DNA from: a virus | Length of the DNA stretch: 23,950 nucleotides | Strand: one strand, 5' to 3' | Virus record (IMG/VR): IMGVR_UViG_3300039049_000256 | Coordinates: 5,813 to 29,762 of that record | Shown here: in pieces, positions 3,861-21,087 of the stretch | How the letters are laid out: every line of letters begins with the position of its first letter | Position numbering within the stretch: the first letter of the stretch is position 1 | Program-made: the position numbers and the translations under genes | Notes under the pieces: model-generated | Databases searched by the model: none | Told to the model about the DNA's origin: nothing | Seen by the model: only the letters and a program-made list of their open reading frames with translations

Positions 3861-4246
3861 CAAAGCGCCTCGGTTGCGGTGAGTTCGAGATACTGGTGCC
3901 GCGCGCCGCGCAGGCTTTCCTTGACCCCGGTGATGTTCCAGCGCCGACCGTCCACCACCATGACGTCGGCGGGCGTGATCTGGCGGGTGCTCGCGGTCGA
4001 GGCGACAATCCAGCGCGACGTGACGCCAGCGATCTGCATGTCGTTGGCGAGCCGTTCCTGATCCGACAGATCCTCGCGCTTGGCCCAAGCTGCACAAAAG
4101 GACGGCGGCAGCTCGATCTCGGAGGGCGACACTCGCACCTCTTCGCCAAGCGCGTTCAGCGTGGACGGGACCTCCTTGGCCCCCGGATCCGTCGCATAGC
4201 GATAGAACACCGCCTTGCGGTCCAACTGCCCGATCGCGACCGCCAT
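3860..4246 (-). CDS. Phage head-tail adaptor (head closure) protein
   Basis: This 128-aa protein contains IGQLDRKAVFYRYAT at the start and VVDGRRWNITGVKESLRGARHQYLELTATEA at the end. A short beta-rich protein with a late WNITGVKE...LEL segment fits the phage head-tail joining family (SPP1 gp16-like stopper, GTA gp7). The start at 4246 is preferred because it forms a TGATG overlap with the connector gene. An in-frame start further upstream would overlap that gene by about 30 bases. The neighbours on both sides are neck proteins. Confidence 0.82.
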   Translation of the reverse strand: MAVAIGQLDRKAVFYRYATDPGAKEVPSTLNALGEEVRVSPSEIELPPSFCAAWAKREDLSDQERLANDMQIAGVTSRWIVASTASTRQITPADVMVVDGRRWNITGVKESLRGARHQYLELTATEAL

Positions 4247-4824
4247 CAGATCACCGACCGCCGGTAAGGCGCGCACAGAGTCCGCACGCCGAGCGGCAGT
4301 TCCTCCATTGCGCCGGCCGTGACCGCTTCGCGGTTCTGGTAGAAGTGACCGGCGAGCAGCCGCGCGGCCTGAACGATAGCCGGTGGGACGTCTGCGGCCG
4401 CCGCCCCGAACCCCGCGGTATAGATCACCGTCACCGGTTCGCGGTCATCGGCCGAGAGCGCGGGCGCGGCGAAGCTCGCCCGGAAATTGATACGCGGGCC
4501 CCGCGGGTACTCGACCAGCTGGTAGTCGGCGGGATCCACCGTCTGTTCCTCTCCCGCCGTGTCGAGGTAGGAGACCGCCACATCGCTCGCGTCTGGCAGC
4601 GACAGCGGGAGTGGCGACGACCATTTCGCGAATCCCTCCTCCCACACCTGGTTGATCAGGCAGCGCCCGAGGTGTCCGCGCGGCCCGTCCAGATGGGATA
4701 CGGCAGCGGCGACATAGTCCGCCACAGCCGTTTCCTCTTCGGGATCGAGGATGCGCAGGTGCCGCAGAACATCCGCCGCCGTGATCACCTCGGCGGCGGG
4801 ACCTTCGAGACGGGTCAGGCTCAC
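4246..4824 (-). CDS. Head-tail connector protein (gp6 / phiE125 gp8-like)
   Basis: This 192-aa protein starts with GTG at 4824, overlapping the stop of the preceding gene (GTGA). An N-terminal helical half (ITAADVLRHLRILDPEEETAVADYVAAAVSHLDG) is followed by a beta half with YQLVEYPRGPRINF and VTVIYTAGFG. The end is PPAIVQAARLLAGHFYQNREAV. This arrangement, including the conserved A-hydrophobic-GH-YxNRE helix, is typical of the gp6-like connector family and GTA gp6, which assembles below the portal. Its place directly after the capsid region agrees. Confidence 0.85.
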   Translation of the reverse strand: MSLTRLEGPAAEVITAADVLRHLRILDPEEETAVADYVAAAVSHLDGPRGHLGRCLINQVWEEGFAKWSSPLPLSLPDASDVAVSYLDTAGEEQTVDPADYQLVEYPRGPRINFRASFAAPALSADDREPVTVIYTAGFGAAAADVPPAIVQAARLLAGHFYQNREAVTAGAMEELPLGVRTLCAPYRRSVI

Positions 4825-5156
4825 GCTGCGCCGCCCTCACCTTCGGGTTTCGCGTCGCCGCCCTCGCCGTCGGTCGGCGTGGCGCCACCCTTACCCTCGG
4901 GCGTCGCGGTGCTCGTGTCGGTGACCTTCGTTTCGGCCGAGGGCACCGCCTGGTTCGCGGGCTTCGGCGCGGCCTTGTTCTTCGGGGCCTTCTTCGCCTT
5001 CTTGTCGTCCGCGCCGTCCTCGGCTCCGGATTCGACCAGAACGCCTGCAGCGACGAGGTGGTCGACCTCACCCGGATGCGCGACGCGCTCGTCGCCTTGG
5101 TCATACCAGCGGTCACCCTGGTGGGGACGTTTCACGATGTAGGTTTTCGGTGCCAT
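4821..5156 (-). CDS. Small capsid-adjacent protein with low-complexity acidic tail, function unknown
   Basis: This 111-aa protein has a compact N-terminal domain of about 45 residues (MAPKTYIVKRPHQGDRWYDQGD, then HPGEVDHLVAAGVL). A disordered Lys/Ala/Pro/Gly/Glu-rich tail follows. A GGAGG ribosome binding site precedes the ATG at 5156. Comparable short proteins often sit between the major capsid and connector genes in alphaproteobacterial phages, but I know no proven role. A minor head or decoration component is possible from position alone. Its stop overlaps the GTG of the connector gene. Confidence 0.75.
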   Translation of the reverse strand: MAPKTYIVKRPHQGDRWYDQGDERVAHPGEVDHLVAAGVLVESGAEDGADDKKAKKAPKNKAAPKPANQAVPSAETKVTDTSTATPEGKGGATPTDGEGGDAKPEGEGGAA

Positions 5157-11175: not shown

Positions 11176-11865
11176 TTATTTCCAAGGCGTCTGCGGCGGC
11201 ATCGCGAGCGTGACGCAGAAGCAGGAGAGCGCGCGACCGATTCGCAGGTTGTCCCTGATTTCAGAAAGCGCACCCCAGAAGGCGAGGTATCCACGCCGTG
11301 CCGCGCCGATCTGGGCGGGCGTCGGCGACCAGACAACGGGGCAGAACTGGACGGGTTCGACGACCTGCACGCCACGGCGATTGACGCGCGATTGATGCGG
11401 CCAGCCCTCGTCACCCAACTCAGCCGCATCCGCCACCTTTGAGGGTCGCCCTGCTCCATGCTGACGCTTTCCTGCCGGGTGGCAGCGCGGCACCGCACCC
11501 ACCATCGCATCGGGCAGCATCCCGGCCCGTGCCGCCTCGGCGATGTGGATCGCCATGGACCGGCCACCATGCACCACGGGCAGCGCCGCGACGGCGGCAG
11601 CGACCACGTCGGCATCCGGGTGCGGCTCCGATCGCCCGCCGCCGTCGACCCGGCAGCCAAGCCGCGCCCGCTCGATCATCACGTATTCCGTGCCGTAGCC
11701 GGGCCGCGCGCCGGTGATCCGCTCGATCTCGGCGAACTCGAGCCGGGCGCACTCGCGCTGGAAGGCCCACATGAGGAGCGGCCAAATCGCCGCCTCGACA
11801 CGGACACCGGGACGCGGACGGGGCAGCGCGGGGGCGAGGCTGGCGGTGTCGCGTCCCAGCATCAT
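11176..11865 (-). CDS. Phage protein of unknown function; candidate late regulator by position
   Basis: I do not recognise this 229-aa protein by family. It contains ERITGARPGYGTEYVMIERARLG, HGGRSMAIHIAEAARAGMLPD, and a C-terminal PAQIGAARRGYLAFWGALSEIRDNL that looks like a DNA- or protein-binding helix pair. The start ATG at 11865 overlaps the stop of the upstream gene (ATGA), with GGGAG seven bases before it. It is the last gene before the HNH-terminase block and is followed by a gap with a candidate promoter, the place where Q-type late activators or antiterminators usually lie. That role is inferred from position alone. Confidence 0.7.
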   Translation of the reverse strand: MMLGRDTASLAPALPRPRPGVRVEAAIWPLLMWAFQRECARLEFAEIERITGARPGYGTEYVMIERARLGCRVDGGGRSEPHPDADVVAAAVAALPVVHGGRSMAIHIAEAARAGMLPDAMVGAVPRCHPAGKRQHGAGRPSKVADAAELGDEGWPHQSRVNRRGVQVVEPVQFCPVVWSPTPAQIGAARRGYLAFWGALSEIRDNLRIGRALSCFCVTLAMPPQTPWK

Positions 11866-12512
11866 GCGGCTTCTCCCTTGGAGTGATCGGAGGCCTGCGC
11901 TTCCCGATGCGCGATCCCGGCGTCGATCAGCGCCTCGACATGGCGGGTGAGCGCGAGGTGATCGGTGAGCCAGGCCCGCTCGCTGGGCAGGATGTCGCCC
12001 CGCGCCAGCGCGTCGTTCGCGCGCGTGAGCCGCCGGGCGTCATCCTCGGCCGCCGCAGCGATCTCGCGCATGTCGACCGGGAACAGCGGACGCGGGTGCT
12101 TGACGAGAAACCGATAGGCCGCGACGTGCAGGCCCTGCGAGCGAAGCACCGGACCCTCGACCGAGTGCAGCCAGGTCTGGAAGATCGGGTTCGCGGGATC
12201 CGGCGGCGTCTCGAAGCGATGGGCGAAGTTGCGCAGCGTGACCCAGCCGGGCCAGACGTTCTTGGCCTTGCCGCCTGCCATCATCATCGCCACCTGCCGA
12301 AGCCGTTCGAGCCCGTCCTCGGTCATGTAGCCCAGACGGTCCTGCAGCTTGGCGAGGAACTCGGCATGGCCCTTGGCCGTGCCCCTGGGGTCGCGGATCA
12401 TGCCGTCGCGTTCGAGCGGCTCGATCAGGCAGCGCCGCACCCGTTCGCGCCCCGAGACGTTGTCGGCCTGCCCGCCGCCCTGCCCCTCCGTCGTGGTCTG
12501 CTCGTTCGTCAT
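11862..12512 (-). CDS. Phage early protein of unknown function
   Basis: This 216-aa protein has no motif I can name. It is rich in helices, with a central segment GYMTEDGLERLRQVAMMMAGGKAKNVWPGWVTLRNFAHRFETPP. The C-terminal half is charged (RLTRANDALARGDILPSERAWLTDHLALTRHVEALIDAG). The run of small residues plus Trp (AKNVWPGWVTL) could be a DNA-contacting turn, but this is a guess. Immediate linkage to the O-like replication gene (about 15 bases apart) raises the possibility of a lambda P-like loader partner, without sequence proof. The ATG at 12512 has GGGGG six bases upstream; a GTG one codon earlier is also possible. Confidence 0.7.
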   Translation of the reverse strand: MTNEQTTTEGQGGGQADNVSGRERVRRCLIEPLERDGMIRDPRGTAKGHAEFLAKLQDRLGYMTEDGLERLRQVAMMMAGGKAKNVWPGWVTLRNFAHRFETPPDPANPIFQTWLHSVEGPVLRSQGLHVAAYRFLVKHPRPLFPVDMREIAAAAEDDARRLTRANDALARGDILPSERAWLTDHLALTRHVEALIDAGIAHREAQASDHSKGEAA

Positions 12513-12527
12513 CACTTGCCCCCTTTC

Positions 12528-13175
12528 TCAGCCTGTCCAACCGATGTCGTGAAGCTCGCCCTCGGTCAGAAGCCCGGCGGCGAGGATGTGGGATCTGACC
12601 CAGACCGCGACGTCGGCGAGCGCGTCCCGGCGACCTTCCCGGAAGGTCCTTACGGCGCGTTCAGCATCGGCGATGACGGCTGAGTTTTCGGATCGTTTCG
12701 GGGCCTGCAAAACCGGCCCGCCGGGGTTCCTTACGGGTTCTTTACAGGTTCCCTCTCCAGTGGGCTGGAGACGGCTCCCCCTGTTTTTTGGAGACGGCTC
12801 CCCCCTTTTTTTGGAGACGGCTCCGTCTCCAGTTTTTGGAGACGGCTCACCGCGATATCCGTCTCCAGATTTTGGAGACGGCACTTGTGCGCTCTCCAAC
12901 TCGAACCCCAAGATGTAGCGGGTCGGGAGCTGCTTCTTGGACCCCTCGTCCCAGCACTTCTCGCGCCGTAGCAGGCCGCGTTCCTCGAGCGCGTTGAGCG
13001 CGTTGTTGAGCGTGCCGTTCGACACCCCGGTCGCGTCTCGCAGGTAGGCCTGCGTCGGAAAGCAGCCCGCCGAGGGGTTGTGGCAGTCGCACAGGTGGAA
13101 AAGGACGCGGAACTCGCTGTTCGACAGCTCTGCCCCGCTCATTCCTGCCAGCCATGTGGTTGCTTTGTGGCTCAT
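12528..13175 (-). CDS. Winged-helix replication initiator-like protein (lambda O analogue) containing an internal repeat array
   Basis: This 215-aa protein has an N-terminal winged helix-turn-helix at about residues 15-95 (LSNSEFRVLFHLCDCHNPSAGCFPTQAYL, then TGVSNGTLNNALNALEERGLLRRE). A low-complexity linker follows at about residues 98-145, with the recurring tetrapeptide PSPK, and then a C-terminal helical part (AVRTFREGRRDALADVAVWVRSHILAAG). The layout of wHTH, repeat-coded linker and C-terminal domain parallels lambda O, whose gene contains the origin iterons. The ATG at 13175 is chosen because the HTH follows normally; the frame is open further upstream but lacks a good start. It sits after the DnaA-domain gene and before the unknown 216-aa gene. 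Confidence 0.72.
   Translation of the reverse strand: MSHKATTWLAGMSGAELSNSEFRVLFHLCDCHNPSAGCFPTQAYLRDATGVSNGTLNNALNALEERGLLRREKCWDEGSKKQLPTRYILGFELESAQVPSPKSGDGYRGEPSPKTGDGAVSKKRGEPSPKNRGSRLQPTGEGTCKEPVRNPGGPVLQAPKRSENSAVIADAERAVRTFREGRRDALADVAVWVRSHILAAGLLTEGELHDIGWTG
12767..12881. repeat. Iteron-like array: five direct CCGTCTCC repeats with inverted copies, candidate phage origin
   Basis: On the plus strand GGAGACGG occurs at 12767-12774, 12790-12797, 12813-12820, 12838-12845 and 12874-12881, with start-to-start spacings of 23, 23, 25 and 36. Inverted copies CCGTCTCC lie at 12823-12830 and 12859-12866. On the coding strand each unit reads GCCGTCTCC followed by four to seven A residues in four of the five units, and two units close into hairpins with TGGAGACGG. 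The core is read in three different frames within the gene, so conservation is of DNA rather than protein. Position inside an O-like gene suggests origin iterons. Confidence 0.7.
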
Positions 13176-13357
13176 CGTCGTCCCGTCCCGCGCCTCTCTG
13201 GGCGCCATGCTGCTCGTGCCCGCGCGAGAGGCCCCGCGCGGGCGGTTGTCATGTGGCGCGGCCCCGGTGCAGGAAGGGCACCGGCCTCTCGCGCCGCCGC
13301 AGTTCGGGCAAGCATCACCCCGGCACCCACGGCCTACCGCTGCCCTTGGCCCGGCAG
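13176..13357. other. GC-rich gap between the DnaA-domain gene and the O-like gene
   Basis: No gene with a canonical start is supported here. On the minus strand, in frame with the downstream O-like gene and uninterrupted into it, the translation includes CPNCGGARGRCPSC (cysteine codons between 13269 and 13310), a double CxxC as in zinc ribbons. No ATG, GTG or TTG precedes it in that frame. Short GC-rich palindromic stretches such as the repeated CGCGCGAG/CCCGCGCGGG motifs at about 13220-13242 could form hairpins. It may be leader sequence, a decayed small gene, or an N-terminal extension. Confidence 0.4.
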
Positions 13358-13750
13358 TCAGGGCGGTGCGCGGCCCTCCGCCAAGGCACGCACGCTTGCG
13401 AACGGGGCCGCCCGGACACCCACGAAGCGGATGAACCGGGGCCGCGCGTTCAACTCGATAAGGGTGAAGATCTCGTCGATCTCGCCGCAGTAGCCGGCGT
13501 CGCGCTCCATCTGGGCGGCCACGCGCCGGACGCCGCCCATGACGGTGGAATGATCGCGGTCGAGATAGATCCCGACCCTCGGAAAGGACCAGTCGAGCGC
13601 GTGGCGCAGGAAATACATCACCTCCTGCCGCACCCCAGCCTCGGGCTGGCAGGTCGAGGCCGACAGGACGTCCGCCACCCTGACCTCGCGCACACGGGCG
13701 ACGATCTCGACGATGTCCTTGGCCGGTTGCAGCCTGCCGACACTACGCAT
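13358..13750 (-). CDS. Stand-alone DnaA domain IV-like DNA-binding protein
   Basis: This 130-aa protein matches only the C-terminal DNA-binding domain of DnaA. It has a helix VRQEVMYFLRHALDWSFPRVGIYL followed by DRDHSTVMGGVRRVAAQ. The DRDHSTV sequence (residues 64-70) is the DnaA signature that reads the DnaA box, normally GRDHTTV. There is no AAA+ domain. The ATG at 13750 follows a strong AGGAGGAGG site, and the first codons overlap the methyltransferase stop. It directly precedes the O-like gene and may help recruit or exclude host initiation machinery at the phage origin. Alternatively it may be a transcription factor using the same fold. Confidence 0.82.
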   Translation of the reverse strand: MRSVGRLQPAKDIVEIVARVREVRVADVLSASTCQPEAGVRQEVMYFLRHALDWSFPRVGIYLDRDHSTVMGGVRRVAAQMERDAGYCGEIDEIFTLIELNARPRFIRFVGVRAAPFASVRALAEGRAPP

Positions 13751-14519
13751 GGATGAGCCTCCTCCTGGCACGCTCCGGGATCAGGGCCAGTCCGCGCGGA
13801 TCTTCGGGATAGTCATGCGGGCGCTCGCACCTGAGGCGCGTGCCCGGCGGCACCCAATGGAGCCGCGTGCCGCGCCCCATGTGCCGCTTGCGCCAGATGA
13901 ACCAGGCATAGGCGGCCGCCGTGGTGGGCTTCTTGTAGACGCCTTCCGGGTGCAGATAGGGCCGATCCGGGCAGCGCATCACGCCAGCGTGGATCACCAC
14001 TCGCTCGGCAAAGACCATGACGTCCGTCGGCGGCATCCGGTCGAAGATCATCGTGTAGCGCTCGGCACCCTCGGCAAAGGCCATGCGCTGGAAAAGCGCC
14101 ACGCCCTCATGCGCCACGTCGAGCGCCCGCTGCGCGAAGCTGAGCGACAGGTTGTAGGGCGGGTTGGTGATCACCCAGTCGAAGCCGTCGTCACCGTCGC
14201 GCGGGGTCAGGAAGTTCCGTTGCCCAAAGCCCGCGCCGTAGTCCACAAGGTCCGAGGCCATGACGACACCGAACCGCTCGCAGAGCGGGCGCACCATGTG
14301 GCCCCGGTTGGCGGCGGGCTCCCAGACGGAGGCGGTGCCGGGCGCCGCCCCCATCGCCTCGAGCCGATCGAGCATCGCCCGCGTCGCCCAGGGCGGCGTC
14401 GGGAAATCCTCGTCGCTGTCGTCGGGTTCGGTGCGCGAGGCGGTGAAGCCGCTGTTCACGCGAATGGCGCCTTTCGTCCGGCCAAGGTCGCGAACCGTGT
14501 TTTTCCCCAACCCGCTCAT
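13743..14519 (-). CDS. Orphan DNA methyltransferase (class I, NPPY type)
   Basis: This 258-aa protein has a SAM-binding motif I region VWEPAANRGHM (about residues 65-75), an acidic strand end ASDLVDYG, and the catalytic motif NPPY (119-122) in FDWVITNPPYNLSLSFAQRAL. The (D/N)PPY tetrad is typical of amino-methyltransferases acting on adenine N6 or cytosine N4. No restriction enzyme gene is adjacent, so it is probably a solitary phage methylase that protects phage DNA or times early events. The C-terminal part (YAWFIWRKRHMGRG) is basic. The ATG overlaps the stop of the regulator gene (ATGA). Confidence 0.85.
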   Translation of the reverse strand: MSGLGKNTVRDLGRTKGAIRVNSGFTASRTEPDDSDEDFPTPPWATRAMLDRLEAMGAAPGTASVWEPAANRGHMVRPLCERFGVVMASDLVDYGAGFGQRNFLTPRDGDDGFDWVITNPPYNLSLSFAQRALDVAHEGVALFQRMAFAEGAERYTMIFDRMPPTDVMVFAERVVIHAGVMRCPDRPYLHPEGVYKKPTTAAAYAWFIWRKRHMGRGTRLHWVPPGTRLRCERPHDYPEDPRGLALIPERARRRLIHA

Positions 14520-19022: not shown

Positions 19023-19246
19023 GCGCTATCAACCCCCTCGGCCGATTCTGGATGGTCGCCCGCAAGCCTTGGGGCCCCGGCAGCCGCACCGAACCCCGCG
19101 CCCGTTATTCCAGCCTCGACGACGCCCGCCGCGTAGCCCGCGACCTCGCCCGCACCCACGACGCGCCCTTCGTCATCCTCGAAGCCGTCGAAATCATCCG
19201 ACCCGATCAATCCGGTCAGGATGACAACACAAGGAGCCTGTTCTGA
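19019..19246 (+). CDS. Small protein of unknown function
   Basis: This 75-aa protein begins MSAINPLGRFWMVARKPWGP and continues RARYSSLDDARRVARDLARTHDAPFVILEAVEII. The pattern (aromatic strand, helix with SLDDARRVARDLA, then strand FVILEAVE) is a common small alpha/beta module in phage early genes without known activity. The start overlaps the upstream stop (ATGA) with GAGG seven bases before. Its TGA shares a base with the ATG of the ParB-like gene. Confidence 0.7.
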   Translation: MSAINPLGRFWMVARKPWGPGSRTEPRARYSSLDDARRVARDLARTHDAPFVILEAVEIIRPDQSGQDDNTRSLF

Positions 19247-21087
19247 TGACCAACGTCCTGAAATCCCCCCTGTCCCATCTCTCCATCTCGCGCCTGAACC
19301 CGCGCCAGACCCACGACCCGGTCGAGGTCGAGGCCAAGATGCGCTCGATCCTGTCGGTCGGGCTGATCAACCCGCTCGCCGGCCAGATCGACCCCGCCAC
19401 CAGCACGATCGGCATCGTCGCGGGCGGCTACCGCCTGCTCGCCCTGCAGCGCATCGCCGAAGAATACCCCGAGCGCACCGATCTGATCGACGCGATCCCG
19501 GTCAACGTGACCGAGGACGAGGCCACTGCCCGCGCCTGGGGCATCGCGGCCCAGACCCAGACTGACCTGACCCCGGCCGAGGAGATCCGTGCCTACGGCA
19601 CCATGGCGCGCGACAGCTACGCCGACCCGGCCACCATCGCCCGCGCCTTCGGTGTGACCGAGAAGCGGGTGCGCCAGCGGCTCAAGCTCGCGGATCTGCC
19701 CGACCCGGTGATCGACGCCCTCGCCGCCCGCGAGATCACGCTCGACGTCGCCGCCGCGCTCACCACCGCGCCCTCGCCCGAGCGGGCCGTCGAGGTGATG
19801 GAGGCGGCGCGCCGGGCCGCTTGGAACGACCACATGGTCAAGCGCGAGCTGCACGGCGGGCAGGTGCGCGGCACCGACCGGCGCGCGGTTTTCGTGGGGG
19901 CGGCACGCTACGAGGCGGAAGGAGGCCACGTCGAGCGCGACCTCTTCTCGGAGGACATGTGGTTCCTGGACGAGGGGCTGCTCAACACCCTCTTCGACCG
20001 CTGCCTGACCGAGGCGCAGCGCGACGCCGAGGCGGAAGGCTGGGCCTTCGTCTGGACCAACCCCGAACACTACCCGTTTAATGATCCGCGCCTCAAGACG
20101 GTCGATGAGGTCGATCCCGAGCCGATCGACCTGCCCGAGGCGGACCAACTCGAATACGAGCGGCTCATCAATCTGTCCTATTCCCAGCGCAGCAAGGAAG
20201 ATGAAGACCGCCTCGACGAACTCGAAACCCGCGCGCGCGGCACTTATACCGACGAACAGGTCGCGGCCTGCGGTATCCTGCTCTGGGTCGATCATGCGGG
20301 CGAACTGCACCGCTCTGATGCGCTCCATCGCGCCGCCGGTGATCAGTCAGAGGACGACGAGAGCCATACGGACGAAGACGCGCCTGCCGCGCCCAAACCT
20401 GAAAGCCGCGAGCCGTCGCAGGCCGTGCGCTCGGACATGCACGCCATTGCCACCCGCGCCCGGCAGATGGCGCTCCTCGCGAAACCCGAGCTTGCCCGCC
20501 AGCTGCTCGCCTACCAGTTGTCGCTTGCGACCGGGTGGGAGCGGATCTTCAGCCTGACCCCGGGCCATGTCCGCAACCTGCCCGACATGACCGAGGGGAT
20601 GGAGCCGGGGCAGCGCCTCGACCCGCCGCCGCACGACCACAACGCCAAGATCTCGGCCGAGGGCTTCGCCGCCTTCCGCGCCAAGGGCATGAAGCACACG
20701 AACGAGGTGCTGACGCAGGCACTGGCCCGGCTGCTCGAGGGATCGACCAATGACCTGGCCAAGGTGATCAACGCCGAGACCGGCGTCGACGTGCGCGCGA
20801 TCTGGCACCCCACCGAGGCCTTCTTCAAACGCCTGCCCACCGCAGCGCTGGACGCCGTCATGCAGGACCTCCTGCACGACGCGGACGAAGAGATGCTCGC
20901 GAAGTTCGCCTTGATGAAGAAATCCGTGAAGGCGAACGAACTTGGCCGGCTCTTCACCAACCTCGACCTGCGCGAGGCATGGGGCCTTTCCCGCGAACAG
21001 GGCGCCCGCCTCGACCGCTGGATCCCCGACGAGATGCGCAACGAGCTGGGGATCGTCGAGGTCGTTGCCGAAGAGAAGGCGGCGTGA
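19246..21087 (+). CDS. ParB/RepB-like DNA-binding protein, orphan
   Basis: This 613-aa protein has an N-terminal ParB-like domain: LNPRQTHDP around residues 17-25, then VGLINPLAGQID. The box-II-like sequence AGGYRLLALQ (59-68) has Tyr where plasmid ParB-like proteins usually have Arg. A HTH region follows (DPATIARAFGVTEKRVRQRLKLADLP, about 127-152). The long C-terminal half is acidic in the middle (about 365-385) and otherwise helical. Size and layout match large ParB-like proteins of alphaproteobacterial plasmids and phages. No ParA partner is in the window, so it may bind phage DNA for regulation, replication or anti-restriction rather than partition. The start is coupled by a TGATG overlap. 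Confidence 0.85.
   Translation: MTNVLKSPLSHLSISRLNPRQTHDPVEVEAKMRSILSVGLINPLAGQIDPATSTIGIVAGGYRLLALQRIAEEYPERTDLIDAIPVNVTEDEATARAWGIAAQTQTDLTPAEEIRAYGTMARDSYADPATIARAFGVTEKRVRQRLKLADLPDPVIDALAAREITLDVAAALTTAPSPERAVEVMEAARRAAWNDHMVKRELHGGQVRGTDRRAVFVGAARYEAEGGHVERDLFSEDMWFLDEGLLNTLFDRCLTEAQRDAEAEGWAFVWTNPEHYPFNDPRLKTVDEVDPEPIDLPEADQLEYERLINLSYSQRSKEDEDRLDELETRARGTYTDEQVAACGILLWVDHAGELHRSDALHRAAGDQSEDDESHTDEDAPAAPKPESREPSQAVRSDMHAIATRARQMALLAKPELARQLLAYQLSLATGWERIFSLTPGHVRNLPDMTEGMEPGQRLDPPPHDHNAKISAEGFAAFRAKGMKHTNEVLTQALARLLEGSTNDLAKVINAETGVDVRAIWHPTEAFFKRLPTAALDAVMQDLLHDADEEMLAKFALMKKSVKANELGRLFTNLDLREAWGLSREQGARLDRWIPDEMRNELGIVEVVAEEKAA

Follow-up and report, generated by a model that had tools for sequence, protein, structure and literature searches.

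A probable lambda-type replication origin within the O-like initiator gene of a temperate phage

The initiator gene, its iterons and its neighbours

The window, a 23,950-nucleotide stretch of an IMG/VR virus record, is a prophage from a marine bacterium, carrying genes for terminase, portal, protease, major head protein (capsid) and integrase. Its minus strand holds a gene for an O-like replication initiator (Table 1), whose product matches the Pfam family HTH_36 (E=2e-11) and, among PHROG profiles, replication initiation protein / O-like (E down to 2e-13). The profiles of the O-like replication initiation families PHROG 270, 345, 391 and 1032 match across the winged helix and the linker, an assignment that is to be taken as a family label only. 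In the AlphaFold2 model, the recognition helix spans residues 53–65, followed by a wing at 69–89 with strands 69–76 and 81–89. An earlier reading of this DNA, made from the letters alone and hereafter called the sequence-only reading, had proposed an N-terminal winged helix in the protein, and both the HTH_36 match and the AlphaFold2 prediction agree with it. Taken together, Pfam, PHROG and the predicted structure describe an N-terminal winged-helix DNA-binding domain and a separate C-terminal domain. Among solved structures, those most like the model include MarR-type regulators and the DnaD N-terminal domain, all with modest scores. A genome assembly from Maritimibacter sp. REDSEA-S28_B5 (L027) encodes an identical protein.

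Table 1. Features of the initiator gene and its iteron array in the window
Feature	Position	Strand	Description
O-like replication initiator	12528..13175	-	215 aa from conserved ATG (MSHKATTW...); open frame extends to 13208
Initiator domains			N-terminal winged helix 1-95, disordered linker 96-155, short helical C-terminal domain 165-211 (AlphaFold2 model)
Recognition-helix codons, residues 53-65	12981..13019	-	Residues 53, 55 and 58 covary with bases 5, 10 and 9
Direct GGAGACGG copies	starts 12767, 12790, 12813, 12838, 12874	+	Spacings 23, 23, 25 and 36 bases
Inverted GGAGACGG copies	12823-12830 and 12859-12866		
Iteron unit 1	12859..12881	-	Complete 23-bp dyad CCGTCTCCA-N5-TGGAGACGG, frame 0 (PSPKSGDG)
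Iteron unit 2	12823..12845	-	Complete 23-bp dyad, frame 0 (PSPKTGDG)
Iteron unit 3	12813..12820	-	Left half-site CCGTCTCC, frame 1 (AVS), degenerate right arm
Iteron unit 4	12790..12797	-	Left half-site, frame 0 (PSP), degenerate right arm
Iteron unit 5	12767..12774	-	Left half-site, frame 2 (SRL)
Partial right arm of unit 5	12751-12758		GGAGAGGG; outside the range of the sequence-only reading
Second element	12723..12750	-	AACCTGTAA / AACCCGTAA / AACC repeats, 11-bp spacing, read as TCK then EPV
Next gene, lambda P position	11862..12512	-	All-helical protein; homologues in 20 loci

Inside the gene, within 12767–12881, GGAGACGG occurs seven times, as five direct copies on the plus strand and two inverted ones. 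These numbers and the spacings between the direct copies are exactly those of the sequence-only reading on recount. The extent that it gave to the array holds for the copies but not for the partial right arm of unit 5 or for a second element, both of which lie beyond it. A single further GGAGACGG copy is found elsewhere in the window, at 2676; after dinucleotide shuffling, the window contains a mean of 2.1 copies, with a maximum of 6. The longer sequence TGGAGACGGC is present five times across the full 29.8 kb record, each time inside the array. Read on the coding strand, the iteron unit is a 23-bp dyad, CCGTCTCCA-N5-TGGAGACGG. Two units hold the whole dyad, and beyond them come three more left half-sites, at distances of 25, 23 and 23 bp.

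The gene that follows the initiator gene has a product with a confident predicted model (pLDDT 87), for which a comparison with solved structures (PDB) returned no convincing sequence or fold match and no detectable relation to a helicase loader. Its identification as a lambda P homologue was rejected for want of sequence or fold support; going by the model and position, it may possibly be an unrecognised helicase loader. The upstream neighbour (13358–13771, minus strand) encodes DnaA domain IV only (Bac_DnaA_C, E=5.5e-12), and because a relative of this protein, a weak one, occurs in only one other locus (L096), the gene is not a constant component of the system. Farther away (19246–21087, plus strand), the phage, which also encodes an integrase, specifies a ParB-like protein with an HTH_ParB domain. 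GC skew across the window was uninformative, with no switch at the array.

Conservation of the repeats as DNA in three reading frames

Along the coding strand, the five left half-sites fall in frames 0, 0, 1, 0 and 2 and are translated as PSP, PSP, AVS, PSP and SRL. The core is thus read in all three frames, as had been noticed from the letters, three times as PSP and once each as AVS and SRL. The spacing of 25, 23 and 23 bp is constant, and none of these distances is divisible by three. When the protein was recoded with synonymous codons, 20,000 times under each of two codon tables, GGAGACGG appeared 0.27–0.29 times on average and 4 times at most, and seven copies were never reached. Since recoding gives at most 4 copies, the array exceeds what selection on the peptide would produce. 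The contention that protein-level selection is insufficient to account for the repeats is upheld by this null, by the constant spacing and by cores that differ jointly across frames, all of which support selection acting on the DNA of the repeats. The three-frame placement is itself not special, as the four iterons of lambda occupy frames 0, 2, 2 and 1 of gene O. According to AlphaFold2, the iterons are encoded exactly within the stretch of the initiator that is predicted to be disordered.

Two viral scans and one genome scan provided about 90 distinct related sequences, whose named hosts are Rhodobacterales; searching at the nucleotide level returned no phage relatives. About 80 of the roughly 90 relatives have the array. 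In 48 loci it ends with spacings of exactly 25-23-23, and in 57/90 the three terminal half-sites lie in frames 1, 0 and 2. These last three units are the most constant part of the array, and copy number varies mostly by in-frame steps of 36 bp (12 codons) at the distal, dyad end. The core takes the forms CCGTCTCC, CCGTGTCC, CCATCTCC, CCGACTCC and CTATCTCC among the relatives, and where cores differ they do so jointly in the units of all three frames. An alignment of homologues, which the sequence-only reading had named as a check, therefore turned out as it anticipated: the DNA unit persists through changes of frame, and core differences are common to the frames.

Several relatives have peculiarities of their own. 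One locus (L017, about 4125–4900) contains a truncated O-like copy that stops inside the first iteron (CCATCTCATGAGCC), and immediately after it stands a second, full gene copy with its own array. Another (L161, 6500–7020) contains a more distant winged-helix gene with AAATTTGG-type linker repeats and then AACCNGTAA repeats; judged by sequence, its layout is the same and its iteron is different. Base 4 of the iteron alternates between T and A within single arrays of the relatives, with distal units favouring A. When A at base 4 follows G, a GANTC (CcrM) site arises, which is the case in 51/80 loci at 17x the density of the surrounding region. Gating of the origin by methylation at GANTC was considered and rejected. 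Because CCAACTCC cores, which are unable to form GANTC, show the same base-4 A, and because the window's gene contains no GANTC, the enrichment in the arrays is probably a by-product.

The second element, missed by the sequence-only reading, consists in the relatives of two or three AACCNGTAA repeats, 11–13 bp apart, directly 3' of the last iteron and usually 22–24 bp from its start. The repeats encode EPV[KR]EPV or TCKEPV and are read in two frames. Their codon use is distinctive: the Val codon is GTA in 139/143 cases within the AACCNGTAA motif versus 66/1027 elsewhere, and the Glu of EPV is GAA in 80/80 versus 44% elsewhere. Averaged over loci, AT content peaks at this element, which is only moderately AT-rich. 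The element is retained despite unrelated iterons in Rhizobium phage PPF1 and, as AACCGGGAA, in cyanophage Pam5. Its position makes it a probable unwinding element. AACCNGTAA tandems by themselves were discarded as marks of an origin: in a scan of viral contigs, most of 80 loci were unrelated and encoded EPVNEPV-like peptides, and the O-like genes that bore the repeats numbered only about 15.

Co-change of initiator residues and iteron bases

Mutual information was calculated between every variable residue among positions 1–95 and every base of the half-site. The best partners were base 3 with residue 82, base 5 with residue 53, base 9 with residue 58, and base 10 with residue 55; base 4 had no clear residue partner. 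Residues 53, 55 and 58 are located in the recognition helix and residue 82 in the wing of the AlphaFold2 model. Gln82 accompanies G at base 3 in 46/46 cases and Arg82 accompanies A in 28/29, while Arg53 occurs with G at base 5 in 23/23 loci and all other residues at that position with C in 58/58. When the set was thinned to 47 non-redundant loci at 80% identity, the four pairs all ranked first and stood above the 95% level of the permutation maximum. Phylogenetically independent contrasts, drawn on the well-supported branches of a tree made without the covarying columns, were concordant in 4.0, 3.0, 3.5 and 2.0 cases for bases 3, 5, 9 and 10 and discordant in 0 throughout; the short domain resolves the tree poorly, and contrasts per base pair are too few for any to be significant alone.

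The rule for base 5 extends across reading frames. In direct half-sites of Arg53 loci, base 5 is G in 48/48, 20/20 and 24/24 sites of frames 0, 1 and 2, and in those of the remaining loci it is C in 156/159, 58/59 and 51/53, respectively. Distal sites obey the rule less strictly, because most loci of one clade (L079–L094) are asymmetric, with the other base, in CCATGTCC, on the right arm of the second dyad and CCATCTCC in the rest of their half-sites. An apparent exception to the pairing of residue 53 with base 5 (L089) came from GAGGAG runs of Glu codons miscounted as half-sites and was gone once the array was delimited.

Annotated phages added to the comparison later, Labrenzia phage V1 and the Rhodobacter capsulatus phages RcOceanus, RcHotPocket and RcKemmy, possess a homologous gene with in-gene repeats. 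At most of their sites, bases 3 and 5 are as predicted from residues 82 and 53, and T is found at base 5 in some sites of the Rhodobacter phages (CCGGTTCC). They differ from the window in their core, CCGACTCCGA or CCGTGTCTC, and in the layout of the array. In all four, the gene is annotated as a helix-turn-helix DNA binding domain protein, and no origin is annotated at the site. That the core covaries with residues of the recognition helix and of the wing lends weight, along with the predicted winged helix, to the earlier suggestion that the gene's own product is the binding protein, and recognition by the initiator of repeats in its own gene is supported at the level of sequence.

A probable origin and its alternatives

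The closest precedent is lambda, in which the iterons, inverted repeats within O, are bound by O dimers that open an AT-rich region of 40 bp next to them (PMC5043065). The lambda record J02459 (39034–39118) has four iterons at distances of 20, 24 and 23 bp, followed by an AT-rich tract, and the analogy drawn in the sequence-only reading extends to gene-internal position, spacing, use of all three frames and flanking element. As in lambda, the initiator gene contains dyad, A-tract-centred iterons in the segment that separates the coding parts for the N-terminal winged helix and the C-terminal region, their spacing (25/23/23 here, 20/24/23 there) is similar, and an AT-rich element is on their 3' side. 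Unlike lambda, the iteron sequence is different, the dyad is 23 bp rather than about 18, 3/5 units in the window are half-sites in departure from a full-dyad array, the AT element is a AACCNGTAA repeat, and the next gene has no detectable relation to a helicase loader. Origins of Stx phages (P27, 933W) likewise combine in-gene iterons with an AT-rich tract (PMC7466680). Copy number varies by in-frame additions in both groups, two extra iterons adding 13 residues to O in Stx phages (PMC7466680) and 36-bp steps occurring here. The Stx phages are enterobacterial with nearly invariant iterons (PMC7466680), whereas the core here differs together with the protein. Iteron plasmids of the RepA/RepE type are less similar, having monomer-bound direct repeats outside rep, in contrast to dyads inside the gene and a best Pfam match to HTH_36.

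An origin is the function that best fits the lambda-like arrangement and the AT-richer element beside it, and the locus is most likely (probability roughly 0.87) a lambda-type temperate-phage replication origin bound by the product of its own gene. The O-like winged-helix protein would bind the dyad iterons within the part of its gene that encodes the disordered linker. Several bound copies, spaced at 23–25 bp, would then wrap or strain the DNA, and the AT-richer AACCNGTAA repeats directly downstream would be opened as a consequence. Replication proteins, the helicase among them, would be recruited next, presumably via the C-terminal domain and the product of the neighbouring gene. We infer these physical events (binding, strand opening, helicase recruitment) and the origin activity to which they would lead.

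An improbable alternative is that the repeats are operators and the protein an autoregulatory repressor of its own gene rather than a replication initiator. The fold is MarR-like, and the covariation speaks for binding whatever its purpose. Such operators would, however, begin about 300 bp into the gene with none near its start, and 12500–13400 contains no promoter-like match. Five to nine spaced sites would also be excessive for a repressor, the profile match is to replication initiators, and the conserved AT-richer element after the array recalls ori-lambda.

It is less probable still that the array acts in RNA, through hairpins controlling translation, termination or mRNA stability. The stretch does fold much better as RNA than shuffles (z = -6.1), with hairpins formed by both complete dyads, and the opposite strand has two terminator-like patterns against 0.8 expected. 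Yet the dyad sites of any DNA-binding protein necessarily form hairpins when folded, the last three units, although so constant among relatives, consist mostly of stemless half-sites, and a hairpin role gives no reason to expect co-change with residues of the recognition helix and wing.

The ParB-like HTH protein encoded in the window raises the idea of a centromere-like partition site for that protein, which is very unlikely, since the covariation links the repeats to the O-like protein in whose gene they lie and the ParB-like gene has no repeat copy nearby. A protein-level feature, namely duplicated PSPKTGDG linker segments with incidental DNA similarity, is hardly credible: PxPxxGDG segments do recur in frame and the distal dyads of relatives do vary in 12-codon (36-bp) steps, but one DNA core is read as three different peptides, synonymous recoding never reproduces the array, core differences are common to all frames and the encoded linker is predicted to be disordered.

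The balance tips slightly towards a broader reading, in which the alphaproteobacterial phages form a large self-contained family whose initiator and in-gene origin co-evolve by a simple contact code. The code would pair Arg53 with G at base 5, Arg82 with A and Gln82 with G at base 3, Gly55 with C at base 10, and an acidic residue 58 with G at base 9. The AACCNGTAA element would change more slowly and be read in a shared, non-specific initiation step.

The kind of system is already known; the new points are how large the family is, that protein and DNA change together, and the second element. Searches of an incomplete open-access library turned up no previous account of these repeats within the gene in alphaproteobacterial phages. 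The locus supplies a probable origin, predicted to the base, for many temperate phages of marine Rhodobacterales and for cultivated Rhodobacter phages in which the gene has so far been labelled only as a helix-turn-helix protein. A protein can evidently tolerate a DNA site read in three frames where the site falls in a disordered linker. Because the binding site is inside the gene of its putative binder, every sequenced copy of the gene supplies both the protein and its site, and the family is therefore a natural dataset on how winged-helix specificity changes. It also bears on how new phage replication specificities arise.
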